Part shown: positions 2,497 through 36,162 of the stretch, one piece after another | Layout: each line of letters begins with the position of its first letter | Numbering within the stretch: position 1 is the first letter of the stretch | Source of the DNA: a virus | IMG/VR virus record: IMGVR_UViG_3300030329_001077 | Span: 1-37,352 of that record | Length of the DNA stretch: 37,352 nucleotides | Strand: one strand, 5' to 3' | Program-made: the position numbers and the translations under genes | Notes under the pieces: generated by a model | What the model saw: the letters and a program-made list of their open reading frames with translations, nothing else | Databases searched by the model: none | Told to the model about the DNA's origin: nothing

Positions 2497-2520
2497 CATT
2501 CCTCCTTGATAGACTTAAAT

Positions 2521-2928
2521 ATGACTGCTAACAACAGGAGAATACGACGGTTAATTGTAGAATTACTGTGGATGCACGGTGCAATGACAAAACAGGAGGT
2601 CGCTGAAAAGTTACAGGATTATCGGGGGATTAGGCAGGTTCCATCCCCTCAATCACTATCTGCTTTACTATCGAAGAATCCACAAGTGGTTTGTGTTGGG
2701 ATCGAAAGAGTTGAGACAACAGGTGGGCAACGAGCGCGACACATGAAGTTTGATATTGACAGAAACTTAATACGAAGGGAAGAGGATTTAGAATGCACAC
2801 GACCAATCAATGCAATGACACCTGCTCAACGCAAGAAGGCAGTCAAGTGTCCACAGTGTGGTCGAACACGAGTCATGCCTCAAGGTGCGAAGATCTGCCT
2901 TCACTGTCAAAGGCCGACATCCTTATAA
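2521..2928 (+). CDS. Winged-helix DNA-binding protein with C-terminal zinc ribbon
   Basis: 135 residues from the ATG at 2521; a TTG at 2506 is in frame, but the TATA spacing favours 2521. Residues about 8-65 form a winged-helix-like region, with a helix containing RRLIVELLWMHGAMT, then KQEVAEKL, a recognition helix around SPQSLSALLSK, and a basic wing. The C-terminus has CPQCGRTR and, 13 residues on, CLHC, a four-Cys zinc ribbon. The combination suggests a sequence-specific transcription regulator. It follows its own promoter and is followed directly by another promoter whose TATA overlaps its stop codon. The product at 10671 has a similar N-terminal winged-helix layout, so the two may be paralogues. 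Confidence 0.6.
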   Translation: MTANNRRIRRLIVELLWMHGAMTKQEVAEKLQDYRGIRQVPSPQSLSALLSKNPQVVCVGIERVETTGGQRARHMKFDIDRNLIRREEDLECTRPINAMTPAQRKKAVKCPQCGRTRVMPQGAKICLHCQRPTSL

Positions 2929-2938
2929 GGTTCAAACT
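2923..2938 (+). promoter_or_regulatory. TATA-like promoter for gene at 2952
   Basis: TTATAAGGTTCAAACT begins 29 bases before the ATG at 2952 and overlaps the preceding stop codon. It resembles the elements at 8328 and 14278 (TATA followed by CAAA). The spacing predicts a leaderless transcript. Confidence 0.5.
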
Positions 2939-2951
2939 ATCAGATAATTTT

Positions 2952-3185
2952 ATGGGAAGAGCAAAGAGTGTAGTCCATGTAGAGTTTGAGGTATTCCGTC
3001 ATGTCATTATGACAATTGACGTAGCCGACCTTCGCGCACGTATGGTGCCTGAAGGGGATGATGTAGCCGAGAAGCGTTTTGATAAAGGTGTGGCGTCGGC
3101 GGCAGAGTTGATAGCGAATCTTGCTATGCGCCGCCAACACAGACTACCTGAAGATCATGCCGCATATATCGCAAAGGGTGAGTGA
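2952..3185 (+). CDS. Small hypothetical protein (77 aa)
   Basis: I took the ATG at 2952 because it sits 29 bases after a TATA-like box and there is no other ATG nearby; the frame is open further upstream only as read-through. The 77-residue product is alpha/beta with an N-terminal strand-rich part (SVVHVEFEVFRHVIMTIDV) and a helical second half rich in Ala, ending in IAKGE. No motif is recognised. It is followed after one base by the gene at 3187. Confidence 0.55.
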   Translation: MGRAKSVVHVEFEVFRHVIMTIDVADLRARMVPEGDDVAEKRFDKGVASAAELIANLAMRRQHRLPEDHAAYIAKGE

Positions 3186-6372: not shown

Positions 6373-8179
<1,807 letters not shown>

Positions 8180-11709: not shown

Positions 11710-12002
11710 ACAATATGTCAATGAAAACAGTTTTAGCAGAAGCCCCGTCGGTTAGCGATATTGTATCGGCCGGTGGTAGAATAGAAATGAAGAAAGATGG
11801 ACAAGTGTATTACGTTGAGGTCAAAGCAGGGTTGAAACCTTCAGGGTCTTACCGTAATGCCGAGTGGCTACAAGAGCATTATGTCGACAAGGGTTTGACT
11901 ATGCAAGAGTTGGCTGATATGTTCAACGTGACACCCATGACGATTTATGGGTGGCTTCAGAAGCATGGTATTGAAACTCGTGGTCGTGGACGAAGGGCGT
12001 GA
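11673..12002 (+). CDS. Helix-turn-helix DNA-binding protein (109 aa)
   Basis: The ATG at 11673 follows a GGGAGGTGGGAGAGGT purine tract (strong RBS) and lies inside the upstream gene. The C-terminal half has the HTH pattern seen in phage homing-endonuclease-type and regulatory proteins: EWLQEHYVDKGLTMQELADM, FNVTPMTIYGWLQKHGIETR. A short beta hairpin (GGRIEMKKDGQVYYVEVK) precedes it. No HNH nuclease domain is present, so it is more likely a DNA-binding regulator. It ends in a GTGA overlap with the polymerase gene. Confidence 0.65.
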   Translation: MSKYKLRPIMDVNNMSMKTVLAEAPSVSDIVSAGGRIEMKKDGQVYYVEVKAGLKPSGSYRNAEWLQEHYVDKGLTMQELADMFNVTPMTIYGWLQKHGIETRGRGRRA

Positions 12003-14275
12003 GCAGTATGATTGTTGAGCATGACAGAGGGAGGGAGGTCTTGATCCGGTATCGAGACCCTACCACTCTGAAACGCTTGACACATCGTATTCAGCAACAC
12101 CCTTACTTCTTCGTTCATCGGGATGAAATGCCTTTGGATGATGAGGGTTGGGCCTACGCGAAAGAGCAGGGAGTATCTTCAGTTGTGGATAAGGGACACA
12201 AGGGTGTTGGCGGTGAGCCTCTACTCAAGGTGTCCTGTCACTATCCCTCCAACGTGATGGATATACGAAACAACTTCAAACAGACGTGGGAGGCGAATAT
12301 CCCTTTCACTACGAGGGCTTTGGCCGAGTCTGATTTTGAAGTCCCCATGTATGACCACAGAGTGTGGTCACTTGACGCTGAATGGTTAGTGGACAGTGGT
12401 CGTATCAACATGATTACTGTTCACGATTCCTACACGGACAAATTATACACATGGTTCATCAACATTGATGACGAGTCTCACAAGAAGGTTAGCGAAATGA
12501 AATGTGTTGACCATCCCGAAGGTCTTGAATCAATCCATTTCGATCCTCACGCAGTCCAATGCACAAATGAGAAGGAGTTACTCACACTCTTTGCGCGTAA
12601 GATGATGGAACACGACCCTGATGTCTTGATGGGTTGGTATCTTGTCGGTGCTGACATAAAGCAGATAGCGGGCAGAATGCGGGCAAACAAATTGAACCCC
12701 GCAATCATGTCCCCAATGCGTAAGCACCGCTACGACTATGGTGATTGGGAACAACCAATCCCCGGTCGTATTTGTTTCGACCTGATGCTTGGGTTCGTCA
12801 AACTGTGGACTGTCAAGAATGGGCAACTCCCCGGTCGCAAATTAGATGACGTGGCCGCTATCGCATTGGGAGAGCGCAAGGTTGAGTTGGACAATGGTCA
12901 CGATACCTACTACACAGATCTTGCGACCTATATTGACTACAACCGACAGGACGTGCGGTTACTACCCCGACTCAATGATATGCTCAACTGCCTCAATCAC
13001 TATCTTACTCTCATGCACCTATGCAAGTCCGACTTCCGTGCTACGCCACACGTCACCAAACTGACTACGGCACTACTACTGAACGACGATTTATGGGTTC
13101 ACCGAATACCTACAAGACCGCAACACGCATACGTGCCTTATAGCGGTGCTGATATTATGGAACCTGAAGCCGGAGTGTATGAAAATCTCGGCATCCTCGA
13201 TATTCGTGCCATGTATCACAGTAACGTGAATCTACACAACATTTCATGGGAGACTCTCTCCGAGGATGGTGTAGATTGTGGCAACGGTATTCAATTCCAC
13301 CAAAATGAACAGGGTGCAGTAGGTCGCCTGATGGATTATCTGACTAACCTACGTAACGAATACAAAGCAAACAAGAAGAATGCGACCGATCAGAACGAGG
13401 CGAAGAAGTGGGATGCTATGCAGTATGCAACTAAGTCCCTTATCGCCTCTCTCTACGGGGTGTGTGGTGATGAGAAGTATTCACTGTATCACCCAAAGGT
13501 CGCTGACGCTATCACATTCACAAGCAGACAGACATTAGGGCGACTTCGTGACCTATGCAATGAGAAAGGAAATGAAGTAGTGTATGGTCACACCGACAGT
13601 GTTTTCGTGCGCATCAACAACCCCGATGAAGGACTGAAACTGTGTGAGGAATTGAATGTTACCATGCACCCTATTGTGATTGAGTTTGAGCGTTGGGCAG
13701 AAAGTATGCTCATCAAAGCGAAGAACCGATATGCGGGTATGGTGACGTGGGTCGAGGGTAATCATTTGGATGAGCCTGACTACTACGTCAAGGGTATTGA
13801 GTTGAAACAGGCTCGTATGCCCAAAGCAATGAAGGACACTATGATGACAACCCTACGGGGTATTCTACACGGTAAAACACAGGATGAAGTCAGTGACGAG
13901 TTGTGTGGTTTGATTACACAGATTACAAATGGTGAAATGCCTATCGAAGATCTTTGCATGAAGGGGTCTTTGTCGAAACCATTGCATCAATACAACACAT
14001 TATCAGGCACATCAGCCGCCGCAGATTGGGCTTACCGCAATTTGGGGATCGAATACGGAGAGGATGACTACTTCCTATGTCTATTGGATGAGGAAGGTAA
14101 ATACATCGGGTTTGATAAGCCTGAACAGATACAAGGATTAGCCAAAGTAGGCTACAAACACATAGCACAACGATTCATCGTCAACAAGGCATCTGACCTT
14201 TATGACGTAGTAGGGTGGGATATGACGCCACTGATGGTAGCAATGGAGGGGAAGCAGAACGTAGTGTGGCTTTGA
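11999..14275 (+). CDS. polB: Family B DNA polymerase with 3-5 exonuclease
   Basis: 758 residues from the GTG at 11999 (GTGA overlap); the ATG at 12008 is an alternative. Exo I is SLDAEWL (D126, E128), Exo II lies near DVLMGWYLVGADI (about 209-221), with Tyr where Asn is usual, and Exo III is YNRQD near 314. Polymerase motif A is LDIRAMYHS (about 400-408), an unusual form of DxxSLYP that keeps the catalytic Asp. Motif B is KSLIASLYG (about 480-488) and motif C is YGHTDSVF (about 528-535), with both catalytic Asp positions represented. This is the replicative polymerase, working with the clamp, clamp loader and primase in the same arm. Confidence 0.96.
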   Translation: MSSMIVEHDRGREVLIRYRDPTTLKRLTHRIQQHPYFFVHRDEMPLDDEGWAYAKEQGVSSVVDKGHKGVGGEPLLKVSCHYPSNVMDIRNNFKQTWEANIPFTTRALAESDFEVPMYDHRVWSLDAEWLVDSGRINMITVHDSYTDKLYTWFINIDDESHKKVSEMKCVDHPEGLESIHFDPHAVQCTNEKELLTLFARKMMEHDPDVLMGWYLVGADIKQIAGRMRANKLNPAIMSPMRKHRYDYGDWEQPIPGRICFDLMLGFVKLWTVKNGQLPGRKLDDVAAIALGERKVELDNGHDTYYTDLATYIDYNRQDVRLLPRLNDMLNCLNHYLTLMHLCKSDFRATPHVTKLTTALLLNDDLWVHRIPTRPQHAYVPYSGADIMEPEAGVYENLGILDIRAMYHSNVNLHNISWETLSEDGVDCGNGIQFHQNEQGAVGRLMDYLTNLRNEYKANKKNATDQNEAKKWDAMQYATKSLIASLYGVCGDEKYSLYHPKVADAITFTSRQTLGRLRDLCNEKGNEVVYGHTDSVFVRINNPDEGLKLCEELNVTMHPIVIEFERWAESMLIKAKNRYAGMVTWVEGNHLDEPDYYVKGIELKQARMPKAMKDTMMTTLRGILHGKTQDEVSDELCGLITQITNGEMPIEDLCMKGSLSKPLHQYNTLSGTSAAADWAYRNLGIEYGEDDYFLCLLDEEGKYIGFDKPEQIQGLAKVGYKHIAQRFIVNKASDLYDVVGWDMTPLMVAMEGKQNVVWL

Positions 14276-25553: not shown

Positions 25554-28500
25554 TTACTCTGCTATACTGATTGCCGCCGCAACATTTCTACCTGCTAGGT
25601 GCGCATCTATCGCGGCTACAATTAACTCTGCGGCTTGATCTGGATTGAAAAAGCCGTGGAATCTATTACTCACAATTACTTCTTGATGATTATACAGGGT
25701 GCCAACACCTTGTTGAATGACGTTCTTGTAAAGGGAACCTGTTAAGTTACCCAACTTCCCTCCGTAGAACAACTCTTCTCGCTTTTCAGCAAACTCTTCA
25801 ATAAGAGTCAATGATCTTCTCGACGCTTCAGTAATTGTCTCTTCCCAATTATCGACAGTATCGTCGGGAGGGGATGCCGCCAAACCTACATAATATGCCA
25901 ATTCATCGAAGTTTTTTGCGCCACTCGCAACGATAATATCATAAACATCTTGCCACTCACCAGCAATTTGATCCATTTCACCCATTTCACCGGATTGATG
26001 CAGTTCCCCACCTGCACGGGCATATTCCGCAAACATCAAACGCTTCCACTCATCATCGTAAGTGCTGGTTGTTAAAATATCTTTCAAAGACCATTCTGCT
26101 CTACCAGCCCATCCGGGTTGGTTAGTCATTTTAGTTTCACCCCATTCTTCCGGCAATGCTTCCAGATCAAGCATACCCTCGTTATACAGAGCAAGTTGAG
26201 CATCAAATAATGCCGCCTGTTCCTCAAACCACCGTGTTCGGTTTCCACCACCTTCAGTCCCCGGAATATACTCTTCAAGAGTAGTTGACATCATTGCCCA
26301 ATTAGCATCCCAATTACCCATCCACCCGCCGGTGTCTGTCGTCCTCCATTCTTCTCTTGCGTTTTTGAAATCAATAAGTCTTTGCATTTTATCTTCATCA
26401 GCCAGAATATCAGAGTAGTTTTGCGCCTCTTTCATATCAGTAACACGAGCAAGTAATCCTAATTCAACTTCTAAAGCGGAGATCTTTTGGTCAATAATTG
26501 CCTTCGCCCCTTCGTCAGCATCTTTAGCCATGTCTTTGAGCATGAATAATTCTCGTTCCATAGCAAGTTCATCTTCTCGCATCTGTTCAAGACTAACGTC
26601 AGCAAACTTTCTAATGCCCTCAACCAATTCATCTACGCTTGTAGCGGCATATTCTGTAGCCACCGCAAACTCTTCAATTTCATCAGTAGCACTTGGTAGG
26701 AGGACTTCTCCCAAAAGCATCAAAGCACCACCGAGGACAACACCTCCTAAAGCCATACTCAAGACTCTAGCCGTTGTAATTGTAATGTTCATTTGTCTAA
26801 CCATCTTAACCATAGCCACAACTGAATATCCCATAGTAGCAACCATAACCATCATTTGGCCTTTCATAGCAGTAGCCGTATCACCAAACATACCCATGAC
26901 CATTGTAACAGACATAAGACCTCCCATCATAGCCATCTGCCCTACGGCGGCTTGTTGTGATGACTGTGCCAATGCTAGATTCCCTTGCTCGGCTTGTTTT
27001 GCGGCCCACGCATTTCTGATCTTAGAGATTGCATCCTTATCTTGTGCGACAGTCTGCAATGCTTGAATACCTGTCGCCTCTAACATGGCAACGATATTAT
27101 TTTCTTCAAGTATAATGTTCTGTGACGTTAAGTGGTTTTTTTGCGCTTGAACGGCATTAAGCACAGTTTTACTTTGCGTAGTATCAGCAATAACATCTAA
27201 AATCATCATTTCTAAGTTAACTTCTTGTTGCTTCATTCGCATTACTGCGGAAATAGCGCCCATTTCCTCATAAGCAAGATTAACCCCACGCTTCTCTAAT
27301 TCGTTATTGATTATTGCTTGCTCATTCTTTTTCATAGCCGTTATGAGTTCAGCATTAGTCATGTGCGCAAGATTACCTTTGAGTTGACCTTGCTCTCTAA
27401 GTAAAGCACCTTGTTGCAATAATTCTCCTCTAGTCATTTTCTCCGCATTTGCTGAAAAGACACCTAGGTTCAATTCTTGTTGCCTTTGTTGTAATTCAAG
27501 ACCTCTTGTTTGGATAATTTTTTGCCTTTCCTTTAACATTTGTTGTGCTTGTGCTAAATCCATTTGACCATAAGTTGCTTCGATCGCTTGGACTTGTATT
27601 TTTTGCCTCAATGTTTCAACTTCCATTTGACCATTTTTTAACGCATCTTGTTGCCAATGATTTTTAATTTGTTGTCGGTTAATTCCGATTCCTTCAAGAT
27701 AAGCAATATCTGATTTCAAAGCCAATTCTAGTTCAGTTATTTGAACAATTTGGTCTTGGTTCATTCGTATTTGTAGTTGGTTAGCGGTTTGAATCGAGTA
27801 TAATTCATTTATTCGTTGTGTTTGTTTGGCTTTTTGTAATCCTAACATCAATTCATAAGTTGTATTTTGTGTAGTGAAAGCCTGACCTCTACCCATTATC
27901 TGATAGAAAGTGGACAGTTCTGTTGTGATAGATCTTTGGACTGCTAGGAATGTTTGGTATGCAATAACCATGTTGGCGATATTGAGAGCGGCATTGTAGA
28001 ACCCACCGAAAATCTTCATCATTTCGTTGGCTCTGATAACACCTGTAAATAGATGAGCAGTAACTTTACCTAGACCCATTTGCTCTTTGTCTAACAAGGG
28101 AAGGATAGCCTCATAGTAACCAATCTGCACTTCTCGCATTGCGGTAAGAGCGGGGATCATTTTTTCAGCCAATAGAGTTTTTCGATTCTCTAATTCAGCA
28201 TTCACTAATTTGAGTTGGAATTGTTCGTTAAGCAATCGCTTATTCCTTTCATCCATTGCTGGGAATAATTTGTTGTGTGCATTCTCTTCTAACTCAAATA
28301 GACGTTGCCTATTCTCCATCAATTTGATAAAACGGACATAGTGACGATTACCTGCTACTTGTTGAGCAAGGTTCTGTTGTTGTGATTCCGTCATGCTATC
28401 CCAATGTGGGCCTAACTCACGTATAATTTGTGAAAGTGGTTTGTTTGCACCTGTGGCTTCATCTGTAACTGACACATATTCATTTAGAGCAGTAGCCGCA

Positions 28501-29291
28501 CCACCAATATCCGATCCTAACCTAGCGTAAATCATACGTAAAGCACGGCCACCTTTACCTTGTTCTTCACCAGCCTCAATTAGAAGGGCGGATTGTGCCG
28601 CCATGTTACCAATTGATTCACCCGTCAAGTGCGCCTGTGAAGCATATTGATTCATAACTTGGATGATCTGATTCATAGTAGCGGCACTCGTATTCTCAAC
28701 AGAGTTTAGAGAGTCCATCATGTCAATTGAGTTATCCCAAAGAACCTGTCGTTGTTGTTCAACACTCATTGCGTCATATTGGGCTTTTGTGTTTTCACCC
28801 ATCATAAAGTTTGTTTGGGCCTGTAAGTTAATCATCTTCTTCATGGCATCTTCGGTTTCCATACCACCAATTAGACCGAAAACCATACCCAATTCAGTTC
28901 CTTCTGCTACTTGATCTTCCCCAACAATACCCGACAATTGAGCCATACGGGAACCTGCTGACAAGGCTTGGTCTGCGGCGAAACCGTATGCTTCACCTAT
29001 CCCTATAATTTGATTCTGTGTCTCTTGCATTTCTGCTTCAGATACACTTTGGAAAAACTTCTCAAACTCAATTCTTGAGTCTGTAATGGCGGTAGCCATC
29101 CCATCAAAGGCATTTATCGTTTCAGATATGCCCATTGTAATCATTTCAAGACCTTCACCAATACCTGATAGAGCGTCAAGCATTGCGCCTCTAATCATCA
29201 ATTGTTGGGTCTTTGCATCTTTGATAAGGCGTTGCGTCTGATAACGCACCATAACGTCGAAGAAAATACGGCTTACACCCTGACGAACCAT
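25554..29291 (-). CDS. Tail tape measure protein (1245 aa)
   Basis: Residues about 60-300 match the TP901 tape measure core: AADQALSAGSRMAQLSG, NLQAQTNFMMG, TSAATMNQIIQVMNQYASQAHLTGESIGNMA and GKGGRALRMIYARLGSD. Long helical coiled-coil stretches rich in Gln and Glu fill about 330-790, and a Met-rich hydrophobic segment lies near 795-868 (MAMMGGLMSVTMVMGMF and GGVVLGGALMLLGEVLL), as expected for the membrane-penetrating part. It is preceded by two tail-chaperone frames and followed by the hub gene 12 bases on, the canonical order. The RBS is AAGGAGGCG. Confidence 0.92.
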   Translation of the reverse strand: MVRQGVSRIFFDVMVRYQTQRLIKDAKTQQLMIRGAMLDALSGIGEGLEMITMGISETINAFDGMATAITDSRIEFEKFFQSVSEAEMQETQNQIIGIGEAYGFAADQALSAGSRMAQLSGIVGEDQVAEGTELGMVFGLIGGMETEDAMKKMINLQAQTNFMMGENTKAQYDAMSVEQQRQVLWDNSIDMMDSLNSVENTSAATMNQIIQVMNQYASQAHLTGESIGNMAAQSALLIEAGEEQGKGGRALRMIYARLGSDIGGAATALNEYVSVTDEATGANKPLSQIIRELGPHWDSMTESQQQNLAQQVAGNRHYVRFIKLMENRQRLFELEENAHNKLFPAMDERNKRLLNEQFQLKLVNAELENRKTLLAEKMIPALTAMREVQIGYYEAILPLLDKEQMGLGKVTAHLFTGVIRANEMMKIFGGFYNAALNIANMVIAYQTFLAVQRSITTELSTFYQIMGRGQAFTTQNTTYELMLGLQKAKQTQRINELYSIQTANQLQIRMNQDQIVQITELELALKSDIAYLEGIGINRQQIKNHWQQDALKNGQMEVETLRQKIQVQAIEATYGQMDLAQAQQMLKERQKIIQTRGLELQQRQQELNLGVFSANAEKMTRGELLQQGALLREQGQLKGNLAHMTNAELITAMKKNEQAIINNELEKRGVNLAYEEMGAISAVMRMKQQEVNLEMMILDVIADTTQSKTVLNAVQAQKNHLTSQNIILEENNIVAMLEATGIQALQTVAQDKDAISKIRNAWAAKQAEQGNLALAQSSQQAAVGQMAMMGGLMSVTMVMGMFGDTATAMKGQMMVMVATMGYSVVAMVKMVRQMNITITTARVLSMALGGVVLGGALMLLGEVLLPSATDEIEEFAVATEYAATSVDELVEGIRKFADVSLEQMREDELAMERELFMLKDMAKDADEGAKAIIDQKISALEVELGLLARVTDMKEAQNYSDILADEDKMQRLIDFKNAREEWRTTDTGGWMGNWDANWAMMSTTLEEYIPGTEGGGNRTRWFEEQAALFDAQLALYNEGMLDLEALPEEWGETKMTNQPGWAGRAEWSLKDILTTSTYDDEWKRLMFAEYARAGGELHQSGEMGEMDQIAGEWQDVYDIIVASGAKNFDELAYYVGLAASPPDDTVDNWEETITEASRRSLTLIEEFAEKREELFYGGKLGNLTGSLYKNVIQQGVGTLYNHQEVIVSNRFHGFFNPDQAAELIVAAIDAHLAGRNVAAAISIAE

Positions 29292-29307: not shown

Positions 29308-29586
29308 TTACGCTATGAAACCACCGTCTTTTAACAGTTTCAGTGCTTCATCATCCGAAACTTCTTGTCTTGCGGCACGTTGTTGGTTTCGTCTTGCTAT
29401 CGCACCCTTAGCATCCCTTTTCCCTTTCCCTTTATCAATATGCTCTTGCACTTGATCGGAAATCTCAGATGCAACGGCTAGATCTAACTCAAGGCGGGCT
29501 TGGCCCCCCTCACCGTGGTATCTATCATACAAGTCACTTGCCGTCAAACCCTTGTAGGTTTGACATAGTGAAGGGGCTACTCGCAT
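29308..29586 (-). CDS. Tail assembly chaperone, downstream (T-like) frame
   Basis: 92 residues if read from the ATG at 29586, which lies two bases after the stop of the upstream frame but in its -1 phase. That frame is open back to the heptamer C CCT TTG at 29601-29595, so it is probably produced mainly as a -1 fusion to the upstream frame (predicted about 208 aa), as for lambda G-GT. Alone, the product is helical and highly charged (KGKGKRDAKGAIARRNQQRAARQE), ending DGGFIA. The position just before the tape measure is the canonical one. Confidence 0.7.
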   Translation of the reverse strand: MRVAPSLCQTYKGLTASDLYDRYHGEGGQARLELDLAVASEISDQVQEHIDKGKGKRDAKGAIARRNQQRAARQEVSDDEALKLLKDGGFIA

Positions 29587-29588
29587 GA

Positions 29589-29936
29589 TTAAGCCAAAGG
29601 GATTGCGCCTTCATCACTGTCGCCACGAACAAATGATAGAATGTCCCTCAATTCTTCACTTGTTAGGGTGTTGGCATCAAACTCTTCTGTTAGAACACAA
29701 CTAGGCAACCACAATTCTGCTTGTCTAGCGATACCTCCACCGTTCTCGTCCAACAATTCGATAAACTCGATATGTTGGTCGTCAGTCCATTCTGAAGGGT
29801 CATCACCAAAGTGTCTGCACTTTCGGATTACACGAGCCTGAATAGACTCTAACTTCATTTTCTCAAGACCGGATGCTTGGCGCACCATAATTTTCTGTCC
29901 ATCATTCAATTCAAACTCTTTTTTCAATACGGGCAT
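29589..29936 (-). CDS. Tail assembly chaperone, upstream (G-like) frame
   Basis: 115 residues with an AAAGGTGA RBS and an upstream 40-base AT-rich gap. It starts MPVLKKEFELNDGQKIMVRQASGLEKMKLES and ends EELRDILSFVRGDSDEGAIPLA. The small acidic helical protein before a second small frame and a tape measure matches the gpG position in siphoviruses. The slippery heptamer covers its codons ATC CCT TTG, one codon before the stop. It should coat the tape measure during tail tube assembly. Confidence 0.7.
   Translation of the reverse strand: MPVLKKEFELNDGQKIMVRQASGLEKMKLESIQARVIRKCRHFGDDPSEWTDDQHIEFIELLDENGGGIARQAELWLPSCVLTEEFDANTLTSEELRDILSFVRGDSDEGAIPLA
29595..29601 (-). promoter_or_regulatory. 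Programmed -1 frameshift slippery heptamer C CCT TTG
   Basis: On the minus strand the zero-frame codons ATC CCT TTG give the X XXY YYZ heptamer CCCTTTG in the exact phase needed. The zero-frame stop (TAA, 29591-29589) lies one codon further on. After a one-base backward slip the frame reads GGC TTA ATC ATG and continues through the 29586-29308 frame without a stop. A weak GGCT/AGCC pairing lies immediately downstream. The arrangement matches tail chaperone frameshifts in lambda-like phages. Confidence 0.65.
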
Positions 29937-29975: not shown

Positions 29976-30173
29976 CTATGCTACATTATACCACACTACG
30001 GTTAGTGTGATGTCGTTACTATCTTTTTTTCTGCTTGTATCACAAGAGATGACAACATCGTTATCATCAAGTGCCGCACGGAACGCAGTTTGGACTGCCG
30101 CCGCCGTGCCTGTAAATTGACTGACCGTAAGTTTATCGACATCTGCGATAACTGTGCCACCATTGTTCGCCAT
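29976..30173 (-). CDS. Small virion-associated protein (65 aa)
   Basis: 65 residues starting 10 bases after the tail tube stop, with a GAGGTG RBS. It reads as alternating strands and one helix (GGTVIADVDKLTVSQF, then AAAVQTAFRAALDDNDVVISC, then SNDITLTVVWYNV). No known family; its place between the tube and the tail chaperone suggests a minor tail component. It is followed by the small AT-rich gap before 29936. Confidence 0.6.
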   Translation of the reverse strand: MANNGGTVIADVDKLTVSQFTGTAAAVQTAFRAALDDNDVVISCDTSRKKDSNDITLTVVWYNVA

Positions 30174-30183
30174 CTAAAGCACC

Positions 30184-31266
30184 TCAAAGGCCACCGAATG
30201 GGATTGCCGCCGATCCGGTATCGTTGAAGATAACCTTAGACATTGCGCTTTGGTTCACTCCGTAGAGAGCCGTGAAGTTTAGACTCATAGTTTGTGAGTC
30301 ACGACCACTTACGTTTGCACTTGGCGCTTCCCAACGAACCTTGTAAAGTTCAATATATGTTGGGGATGTTCCATCAGTAAGGGTAATACCCAAAGCAGGG
30401 TCAGTTGCACCTGAGTTGTTAACTTCAAGACCACCTTCAGTAATCATTTGTGTGTAAGTTGGTTCTGATTCAACTGCGGTGTGGACAACCTTAGCAAACT
30501 CAACACTACCTGTGATTTCACGTAGACCGTTCATTGGTTTGCGAACGTATGTGGTGTTGCCCAATGTGCAAGCCATATCGGTGTCAAGATTCATATTCCA
30601 ATCACAAGTAATTGATTTAACAAGGGTGCTTGCGGTGCTATCATTGTTGAACTTGACTTGTGCATCTGCAAAGTGCATACCGTCAACTGCCCGACCACAG
30701 AATACAGTAGCATTGTCAATTGCGCCTACTGCTGATTCTGCTTTTCCAACATAGTCTGCACTAACCATAATGTATTCGTTTAGACTTGCACTAATACCCA
30801 ATCGGTTAATGCACATACCTGTGTAGGTGTGTTCCTTTTCGTCACGACCTACTTTCATAGTAAATGAAGGTAGTCTGTGTGTGTTACCTTCTGTAAAAGT
30901 GTGTGTTCCGCTACTTACTGCTGGGACAGAGGAACCTGTTCCTCCATAAACACCATACCAATGGCATCCCATGAACATATCTGCTTGCATAGCAAAGTTA
31001 ATTCCACCTTCAGAGTATTCCTTACCTTGCTGACTCTTTGCTTGCCCAAATCGGGACATATCTGATCGGTATAGAACCTCAAATTGATGGGTAATTGACT
31101 CATCATCAACTTCACCACCGATATAATCAGGTTGTCCGGCTACTGCATCATAATCTGTCATATCGGAAGCAGTTCCGTAGATCTGGTTTGCATCTGTTAG
31201 AGTTGCCGCAGAACTTGTTTGTTCCGGCACGAGTTTTACATATCGTAGTGCGAATTGGTTTGCCAA
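30184..31266 (-). CDS. Major tail tube protein
   Basis: 360 residues from a TTG at 31266, chosen because GGTGAT lies three bases upstream, the same RBS spacing as other genes here. The protein is beta-rich with alternating strands (HTFTEGNTHRLPSFTMKVGRD, TYTGMCINRLGISASLNEYIMVSADYVGKAE), resembling the phage tail tube families where a core with a long helix stabilises the hexameric ring. It sits after the tail terminator and before the chaperones and tape measure, as in siphoviruses. Its own inverted-repeat promoter suggests high expression. Confidence 0.75.
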   Translation of the reverse strand: MANQFALRYVKLVPEQTSSAATLTDANQIYGTASDMTDYDAVAGQPDYIGGEVDDESITHQFEVLYRSDMSRFGQAKSQQGKEYSEGGINFAMQADMFMGCHWYGVYGGTGSSVPAVSSGTHTFTEGNTHRLPSFTMKVGRDEKEHTYTGMCINRLGISASLNEYIMVSADYVGKAESAVGAIDNATVFCGRAVDGMHFADAQVKFNNDSTASTLVKSITCDWNMNLDTDMACTLGNTTYVRKPMNGLREITGSVEFAKVVHTAVESEPTYTQMITEGGLEVNNSGATDPALGITLTDGTSPTYIELYKVRWEAPSANVSGRDSQTMSLNFTALYGVNQSAMSKVIFNDTGSAAIPFGGL

Positions 31267-34237: not shown

Positions 34238-34411
34238 TTACTCACTCATCCATGCTGAGATCTGTTCATCTGTGGGTGCTTCGCCCCACTCTGCGGGCCA
34301 ATTTTGCCTTTTGAAATATACACCGTCGCCTTTATCTTCTACTAGATTAACCCATAGTGGGTCAAAATCAGGATAGTTTTCCATCAATACTTGTTCCATA
34401 CTTTTACTCAT
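34238..34411 (-). CDS. Small acidic protein (57 aa)
   Basis: 57 residues beginning at an ATG that shares one base with the stop of the preceding gene (TAATG). The sequence has SKSMEQVLMENYPDFDPLWVNLVEDKGDGVYFKRQNWPAEWGEAPT and ends ISAWMSE; it is acidic and Trp-rich. Function unknown. Its coupling to the C1q-like gene implies co-translation. Confidence 0.55.
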   Translation of the reverse strand: MSKSMEQVLMENYPDFDPLWVNLVEDKGDGVYFKRQNWPAEWGEAPTDEQISAWMSE

Positions 34412-36162
34412 TACAATACCTCCATAATACTCAAAAATGTTTGGTTAGGACTTGTTGCGTTACCAATAAGATTTTTACCTGAACCTCCATCGTGGTAACA
34501 AAATAACTGAAGATAATCACCTTTGACTAATTCTAACAAAAGAGTCCCATTAGAAATCCATGATGAGTCTTTACCATAGTTTCCTCGATAAACACCTGTC
34601 GTGTCTCCATTTTTTTGTAATTGGACAATTACTGAATGAGAAGAAGTTACATATCTAACTGTTGCGCCCATTGCCACAAGATACACACCATTACGTGGCA
34701 CTACCCATTTACGATTTGTATTATCCCATGCGCTTGCAGTATCAAAATCAACAGTATCAAGTGGACATATAGTGTAAGCCGCGCTTGTGGCAAAGTTTGT
34801 TACACTTGTTCCGAGAGAGATATGTGCGTGATGCGGTGTTCTGTTTTCGCTAGTTAACAAAGATAGAGGGGATCGGTAAAGTCCGGGGGCTACTTGAGCG
34901 AAGTTCCATGAACCTTTGATTACAGGTGCCTTCACACTTTGGATTTCAGCACTATGTGTTGCGTTATATGCTGGGCCTTTGAGAACACACCCATCATCAA
35001 TTTCAATAGATTCGCATGTGAGTATATCCCCTTCACCTAAAGTGACTTTGTGACCTGCGGTTGAAGCATGTGCTTTTATCTTTCTGATCTTGGAGACAAG
35101 ATTACCATAAGCAGATGAATATGATGATGAACCTGTTACGGGAAGAGCAAAACCACCGCTTGAGGCTTGGAAATCCCATGTAGAATATCCAGCATCAAAT
35201 AACGGAATTGTGCAAGTAAATCCAGCGTCACTTGTAATTTTGAACTCTTTGGCACCATCATCTGTTTCTGTAGTTGTAGATGCGGGTTGGAATGTAATTG
35301 GGTTGCTTGAACGACCCACGATATTAAGTGAATAGAATGTTGCTTTTGCATTGTCATAGTAATCGAATGTGGATGAAGTAGGGGCAGAGTATTGTGGTCG
35401 GTAGTTGACTGCCGTTCCTGAAGCACCCGTAAGCGATACATTGGGGTAAGGCCCATCATCAAAATATGTTGGGTTTTGTGTGTTTGCATACGCGTATGTC
35501 AAATGTTGTGGATTAGTGATTCTTGCATATTGGCCGTTTTTAACCATAAACATACCATAGCCACTTGCGGCACTTGTTGTTAAATTAACAATTGCACCAG
35601 ATCCACCGGCCTTAATATCACCATTAAGAGTAAGTCCTGTTCTAGCAGTAATTGACTCACCTGCGGCGATATTAACACTACCGCAAAATGTACTTTTGAT
35701 TTCAATTTCTGAAAAATCAGCACCGTTATCCATATCACAATCTAATCTCATTCTAACTTTGAAAGATCCTTTAGCACCGGCCAAAGATACTGCCGAACCT
35801 CCCGAAGAGGCGGCTAAGGAAATTGTGTTAGCATCAACGGCAATGATATACATGTCTGTTCTTCCGGCAATAGCAGTTGGATAACTTGCGCCGGTGCCTG
35901 AGTTTTCCATAAGCCAAACAATTGCATTTGTTGAAAAACCATGACTATTGATTGTAATTCTATTTGTTGAGAAATCAATGTTTGTATCATCAAAACTGTG
36001 GACTGCCATTGTTAATGCGCCATCGAAAACTACTTTGTGTGAACCTCCGGCACCCGGATTGACACCGTGGCCCGCGCTACCCATATCTCCTGACACAGTT
36101 GCCCAATTTGTGGGTTCATCTGATAAAGTTGAAGCCGCACCTAACCAATAATATGTTGTCAT
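34411..36162 (-). CDS. Virion fibre/decoration protein with C1q/TNF-like C-terminal domain
   Basis: 583 residues. The N-terminus YYWLGAASTLSDEPTNWATVSG resembles the start of large surface proteins seen in phages. Residues about 60-130 include an INSHGFSTNAIVWL module with DANTISLAASSG, common in tail fibre repeats. A beta-helix-like central part follows. Residues about 485-583 (GVYLVAMGATVRYVTSS, VIVQLQKNGDTTG, GTLLLELVKGDYLQLFCYHDGGS, FLSIMEVL) match the C1q/TNF jelly roll, a trimeric receptor-binding fold. Among head-tail connector genes, it may be a head fibre or a collar whisker rather than a tail fibre. Confidence 0.6.
   Translation of the reverse strand: MTTYYWLGAASTLSDEPTNWATVSGDMGSAGHGVNPGAGGSHKVVFDGALTMAVHSFDDTNIDFSTNRITINSHGFSTNAIVWLMENSGTGASYPTAIAGRTDMYIIAVDANTISLAASSGGSAVSLAGAKGSFKVRMRLDCDMDNGADFSEIEIKSTFCGSVNIAAGESITARTGLTLNGDIKAGGSGAIVNLTTSAASGYGMFMVKNGQYARITNPQHLTYAYANTQNPTYFDDGPYPNVSLTGASGTAVNYRPQYSAPTSSTFDYYDNAKATFYSLNIVGRSSNPITFQPASTTTETDDGAKEFKITSDAGFTCTIPLFDAGYSTWDFQASSGGFALPVTGSSSYSSAYGNLVSKIRKIKAHASTAGHKVTLGEGDILTCESIEIDDGCVLKGPAYNATHSAEIQSVKAPVIKGSWNFAQVAPGLYRSPLSLLTSENRTPHHAHISLGTSVTNFATSAAYTICPLDTVDFDTASAWDNTNRKWVVPRNGVYLVAMGATVRYVTSSHSVIVQLQKNGDTTGVYRGNYGKDSSWISNGTLLLELVKGDYLQLFCYHDGGSGKNLIGNATSPNQTFLSIMEVL

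Follow-up and report, generated by a model that had tools for sequence, protein, structure and literature searches.

The subject of this analysis is a pair of small overlapping reading frames, here referred to as G and T, which reside between the genes for the tail tube protein and the tape measure protein in the virus record IMGVR_UViG_3300030329_001077 of IMG/VR (positions 1 to 37,352; this whole stretch of 37,352 nucleotides is called the window). We consider it highly probable that the two frames are joined by a programmed -1 frameshift of the lambda G/G-T type, by which two tail assembly chaperones would be made from one start, and, judging from the sequences, -1 slippage is very likely to occur in this tailed virus, which is uncultured and probably archaeal, as well as in more than 100 marine relatives. 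All features of the pair are encoded on the minus strand. The G frame (29589..29936; frame 0) is predicted to encode a G-like tail assembly chaperone of 115 amino acids (aa), an assignment based on identity among relatives, an AlphaFold model and weak fold matches, and ends in a TAA stop codon (29589..29591). A single codon (GCT) separates this stop from the slippery heptamer C_CCT_TTG (29595..29601), which was identified from the window sequence and from the homologous codons of the relatives and would place the proline codon CCU in the P site and the leucine codon UUG in the A site. The junction reads GAA GGC GCA ATC CCT TTG GCT TAA TC ATG CGA from 29612 to 29584. Thus, CCCTTTG at 29601-29595 lies in exact X_XXY_YYZ phase relative to the 115-aa frame; this phase and the distance of one codon to the TAA, both stated in a preliminary description of this DNA, can be read directly from the strand. 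From the slip, the -1 frame begins with GLIMRVAPSL, comprises 95 codons up to its stop codon (T domain, 29308..29595) and, as translation bore out, runs on into a 92-aa frame ahead of the tape measure gene (29308-29586), which has its own ATG at 29586-29584. Joining frame 0 to the -1 frame at the slip gives a predicted G-T fusion of 209 aa (29308..29936), in agreement with the approximately 208 residues proposed earlier. The genes of the window contain 36 in-phase XXXYYYZ motifs in 9,091 codon positions (0.40%), and the chance of such a site within the approximately seven codons in which the -1 frame is open ahead of the stop is about 2.7%, so that the site of the window is by itself suggestive and the weight has to be carried by the homologues.

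Direct homologue scans of IMG/VR with G or with the tape measure protein of the window as query yielded no matches, and relatives were collected by means of the polymerase motif pattern YGHTDSVFV, which retrieved 61 IMG/VR loci, nearly all of them akin to the window and many through several replication proteins. Forty-one of these records were searched with the tape measure and tail tube proteins; both genes were present in 22, from which the intervening DNA was taken. G (46-65% identity) and T were found in 22/22, on the same strand and between the same two flanking genes. Alignments of G extended the set to 178 loci, representing 120 distinct junctions. In 119/120 of these, T has the -1 phase, the sole exception being locus L208 with T in the +1 frame, and in each of the 119 -1 junctions the T frame stays open across the slip site. 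As the window comes from one metagenomic record only, a sequencing or assembly error might be thought to have split one gene into two frames; this is already refuted by the identical -1 offset at the same codons in homologous junctions from many contigs, and we regard its probability as negligible. A canonical heptamer is located at homologous codons in 109 of the 120 junctions (CCCTTTG in 70, CCCTTTA in 12, CCCTTTT in 13 and TTTTTTG in 14), while the other ten -1 junctions retain a T_TTT core only. Conservation of the heptamer and of the -1 phase, proposed in the preliminary description as a check on the frameshift, is therefore found across the group. The G stop follows the heptamer at a distance of 0-15 nucleotides (nt), indicating that the position of the stop drifts while phase and heptamer are kept. 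In 13 distinct junctions, e.g. in L253, L256, L259 and L262, a TAG stop of G directly abuts the heptamer (CCCTTTA TAG, CCCTTTG TAG).

The codons themselves are similarly constrained. With the proteins grouped at 75% identity into 36 clusters, the slip proline was encoded by CCT in 35/35 cases and the slip leucine by TTG in 32 and by TTA in 2, compared to a share of the most common codon of 32-47% in conserved proline columns and 21-52% in conserved leucine columns elsewhere in the same proteins. The comparison is drawn from identical sequences, and relatedness thus acts on both sides alike; a joint probability of about 10^-54, calculated from pooled codon use, ignores relatedness and overstates the case. 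A C precedes CCT even after the residue has changed, to threonine in L120 and to cysteine in L165. Furthermore, the first -1 residue after CCCTTT[GA] is glycine in 65 of 82 junctions, and the frame-0 residue at this place varies (G, V, D, E, A, S or stop). Slippage of the RNA polymerase, by which some messenger RNAs would be altered in frame, is conceivable at the T6 run of the subclade with TTTTTTG, but the runs in CCCTTTG are only three bases long and it is codon phase and a tandem heptamer that are conserved, not a homopolymer, which makes transcriptional slippage hardly credible as an explanation.

Several observations have to be weighed against a frameshift between two chaperone frames. 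The T frame of the window has its own ATG directly past the G stop (TAA TC ATG), so that separate initiation is possible; ATGA overlaps are present in L097, L101 and L110-L113, and the ten junctions in which the heptamer has decayed possess a TAATG or TGATG start-stop overlap in 9/10 cases, L222 being without. T could, accordingly, be a separate protein produced by re-initiation just past the G stop with no frameshift at all. We consider this very unlikely, as in 38 distinct junctions no ATG, GTG or TTG for the T frame occurs up to 17 nt beyond the G stop, so that in those T cannot come from re-initiation at the junction. Moreover, re-initiation gives no reason for the frozen CCT-TTG codons and the C in front of them, and the residues that lie past the slip but ahead of the first ATG show conservation in the -1 frame and fall inside the first predicted helix of T. 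Somewhat less improbable is the combination of both routes, in which a frameshift yields the G-T fusion and re-initiation additional free T wherever a junction provides a start codon. Start codons overlap or trail the G stop beside a conserved heptamer in many junctions, including that of the window, but free T is not needed in lambda-type systems, and the lack of a start codon in many relatives means that it is not generally required. With respect to the signal, a review on archaeal recoding states that the Z base is usually not G (PMC8211752); bacterial slip sites such as C_CCA_AAG do end in G (PMC5009743). A conserved RNA structure downstream of the slip site was sought across the 120 junctions and none was found, the mean z of -0.57 being similar to that of neighbouring windows. 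Finally, no family match to the G protein of the window at a useful score was obtained in the comparison with phrog and Pfam, and the structural matches of its model are weak: in a Foldseek search of the PDB the HK97 tail assembly chaperone 2ob9 ranks first at E 0.24, and alignment by VIA-align gave Z 4.5 to 2ob9 and Z 4.7 to YqbN (3klu) over about 80 residues with 9-10% identity, which is below the threshold for confidence.

A lambda-type frameshift nevertheless remains the reading that we favour, and gene order contributes to the assignment of the pair. In lambda, the tail assembly chaperones G and G-T are produced from overlapping frames between the genes for the tail tube and the tape measure (PMC5009743), the same position as in the window, and in both cases the fusion is expected as the minority product; no sequence similarity between the two pairs was found, the heptamer of the window group is C_CCU_UUR, and an equivalent ratio and function are presumed for it. 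The AlphaFold model of G, with a predicted local distance difference test (pLDDT) score of 91.6, consists of a beta-hairpin and four helices, and in size and rough predicted fold the protein is similar to HK97 2ob9 and Bacillus YqbN 3klu, at the weak scores given above. Viral Foldseek matches of G include several proteins annotated as tail assembly chaperones, again weak (E 0.03-0.4), and the tail assembly chaperone family phrog_344 was matched with a best E of 0.064 by 2/23 members. The strongest viral matches are both unnamed proteins, A0A516M8M4 for G (47% identity) and A0A516MCV4 for T (38%). The model of T (pLDDT 83) has its first predicted helix beginning at residue 2 past the slip. Overall, the predicted resemblance of G to tail assembly chaperones is weak but consistent. 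The chaperone identity advanced in the preliminary description is thus borne mainly by gene order and by the frameshift, with weak backing from the fold.

On this basis, the following course of events may be envisaged. The majority of ribosomes would end at the stop of the G frame and produce G of 115 aa. Some would arrive at C_CCU_UUG carrying tRNA-Pro (P site) and tRNA-Leu (A site); the two transfer RNAs (tRNAs) would then move back by one base, onto CCC and UUU, and reading would continue in the -1 frame to yield the G-T fusion. By analogy to lambda, G would form a coat on the tape measure protein, the tail tube protein would be recruited by the T part, and the efficiency of the slip would set the ratio of G to G-T. 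Slippage may be assisted by elements around the heptamer. In the window, a stem-loop (29524..29589, minus strand; -27.8 kcal/mol) begins 5 nt past the heptamer; its z is -5.67 (0/200 shuffles equally stable), and in the family comparison it is, with z -4.0, the strongest among the 120 junctions. In the TTTTTTG clade, a TGAGGG...CCCTCA stem about 7 nt downstream is seen in many members. Upstream, the glutamate codon at -11 is GAG in 59/86 cases compared to 31% elsewhere in G, a figure that ignores relatedness, and this creates a GAGG ahead of the slip site; the window has GAAGG rather than GAGG at this place. A stimulatory role for the stem-loop or for GAGG is possible.

The more divergent junctions provide some indication of how the site may have evolved. 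On the tree, C_CCT_TTR represents the broad state, and TTTTC-type sites (CCCTTTT and the decayed forms) as well as TTTTTTG sites mark derived groups, that of the TTTTC type with modest support. In the decayed sites (L217, L220, L221, L222, L225, L232, L234, L243, L245 and L251), T is still in the -1 phase, and ACC, GCC, TCC, GCA or ACA is read ahead of TTTTC, the first base or bases of the heptamer having been lost. The preliminary description had regarded homologues with a destroyed heptamer and both frames kept with their own starts as contrary to its reading; such a constellation is partly realized in these ten junctions of one derived subclade, in which the T_TTT core stays and an ATG overlaps the stop in all except one. 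From the sequences, a single slip on U_UUU or re-initiation may be the route to T here. In L208 (IMGVR_UViG_3300025110_000229, 2501-3134; one contig only), the junction reads GTA TCC TTT CGT TGA. This locus is nested in the TTTTTTG clade, an exact UCC_UUU_CGU replaces the -1 heptamer, and by eye two extra bases are present between the same conserved points as in its sister L203. A search for further UCC_UUU_CGN junctions among the G homologues returned the contig of L208 alone. UCC_UUU_CGU is the +1 motif of influenza A virus according to the title of a work cited in PMC7230728, and the TCC_TTT_CGT of L208 is identical to it at the homologous place between G and T. Likewise, in haloviruses of the HF1 group a +1 shift has been proposed at a TTT-CGC motif (PMC7230728), which is similar to the site of L208, whereas the window and 118 other junctions use -1. 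Thus, it might be speculated, as a matter that we see as close to evenly balanced, that the direction of frameshifting has switched within the group, occurring at -1 on C_CCU_UUR or a derived U_UUU and at +1 on UCC_UUU_CGU in L208, with both domains kept. Elsewhere, in Methanobacterium virus Drs3 (L003, 5200-5640), a short frame ahead of the tape measure gene ends in GAA GAC GGA TGA and an open +1 frame of about 50 codons continues past the TGA, possibly an unannotated +1 shift of tail chaperones.

The genes surrounding the pair are those of a tailed virus. Downstream of T, on the minus strand, lies the gene for the tail tape measure protein of 1245 aa (25554..29291; phrog_5448, E 1.1e-19; Pfam PF10145, E 2.7e-15). 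Upstream of G are a 65-aa open reading frame (29976..30173, minus strand), which has 82-86% identity to those of the close relatives L097 and L098, and the gene for the major tail tube protein (30184..31266, minus strand; Pfam PF18906 Phage_tube_2, E 9e-12), present in 22 relatives. In L117 (record G023), the match to the tail tube protein contains one in-frame TAG, which may be an error, a pseudogene or recoding. Further along, at 34411-36162, the window encodes a protein of 583 aa whose C-terminal domain is C1q-like (Pfam E 4e-4) and which also matches a tail fibre family.

The plus strand of the window encodes a family B polymerase (PolB), an RFC small subunit, a Hef/Xpf-type nuclease and GroEL, the RFC subunit and the nuclease being named after their best NCBIfam matches, which are under the curated cut-offs. 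Among annotated phage records, the best-ranked matches of PolB are haloviruses at 23-25% identity. In GTDB a single distant match (27%) on a contig of a bacterial metagenome-assembled genome (Altibacter) was obtained, which is uninformative on the host. Magroviruses, which infect marine Poseidoniales archaea, likewise carry PolB, a clamp loader and GroEL (PMC10768690). From these replication genes, an archaeal host is likely. The archaeal origin assumed in the preliminary description is thereby made probable, and a direct link to a host did not emerge: no relatives of G were found in GTDB genomes, and no tRNA genes in the window. A tblastn search for G among annotated phages was negative as well. 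The GroEL at 6590-8179 is a virus-encoded group I chaperonin (NF009487, E 1.4e-156) standing beside the archaeal-type replication genes. In PolB (12002-14272), motif C reads YGHTDS where YGDTDS is usual, and it is invariant in 13 aligned relatives, which were themselves found by this motif.

Frameshifting of this kind has been predicted before in archaeal viruses. The preliminary description considered -1 frameshifting to be rarely documented in archaea, which holds for experiments, as a review of 2021 lists one cellular gene for which it has been shown (PMC8211752); it does not hold for predictions, since the same -1 G-T shift has been proposed in the haloarchaeal tailed viruses HVTV-1, HCTV-1, HCTV-2 and HCTV-5 (PMC5009743) and in Hardycor1 (PMC7911831). 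What sets the group of the window apart from these viruses is the C_CCU_UUR signal and its conservation over a large uncultured group. Such a Pro-Leu slippery signal is unusual, and neither CCCUUUG/CCCTTTG nor CCCTTTT was found as a tail-chaperone slip site in the literature searched. The less ordinary aspects are the signal itself, its apparent decay to U_UUU and the putative +1 site of L208. The 120 distinct junctions provide comparative support for -1 frameshifting in a large, uncultured and probably archaeal group of viruses, and with the natural series of sites, which comprises C_CCU_UUG, U_UUU_UUG, the decayed U_UUU and a single +1 UCC_UUU_CGU, the evolution of a frameshift signal becomes testable. 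If the switch in direction should prove true, one mode of recoding would be seen turning into another in the decayed sites (N_CYU_UUU_C and similar).
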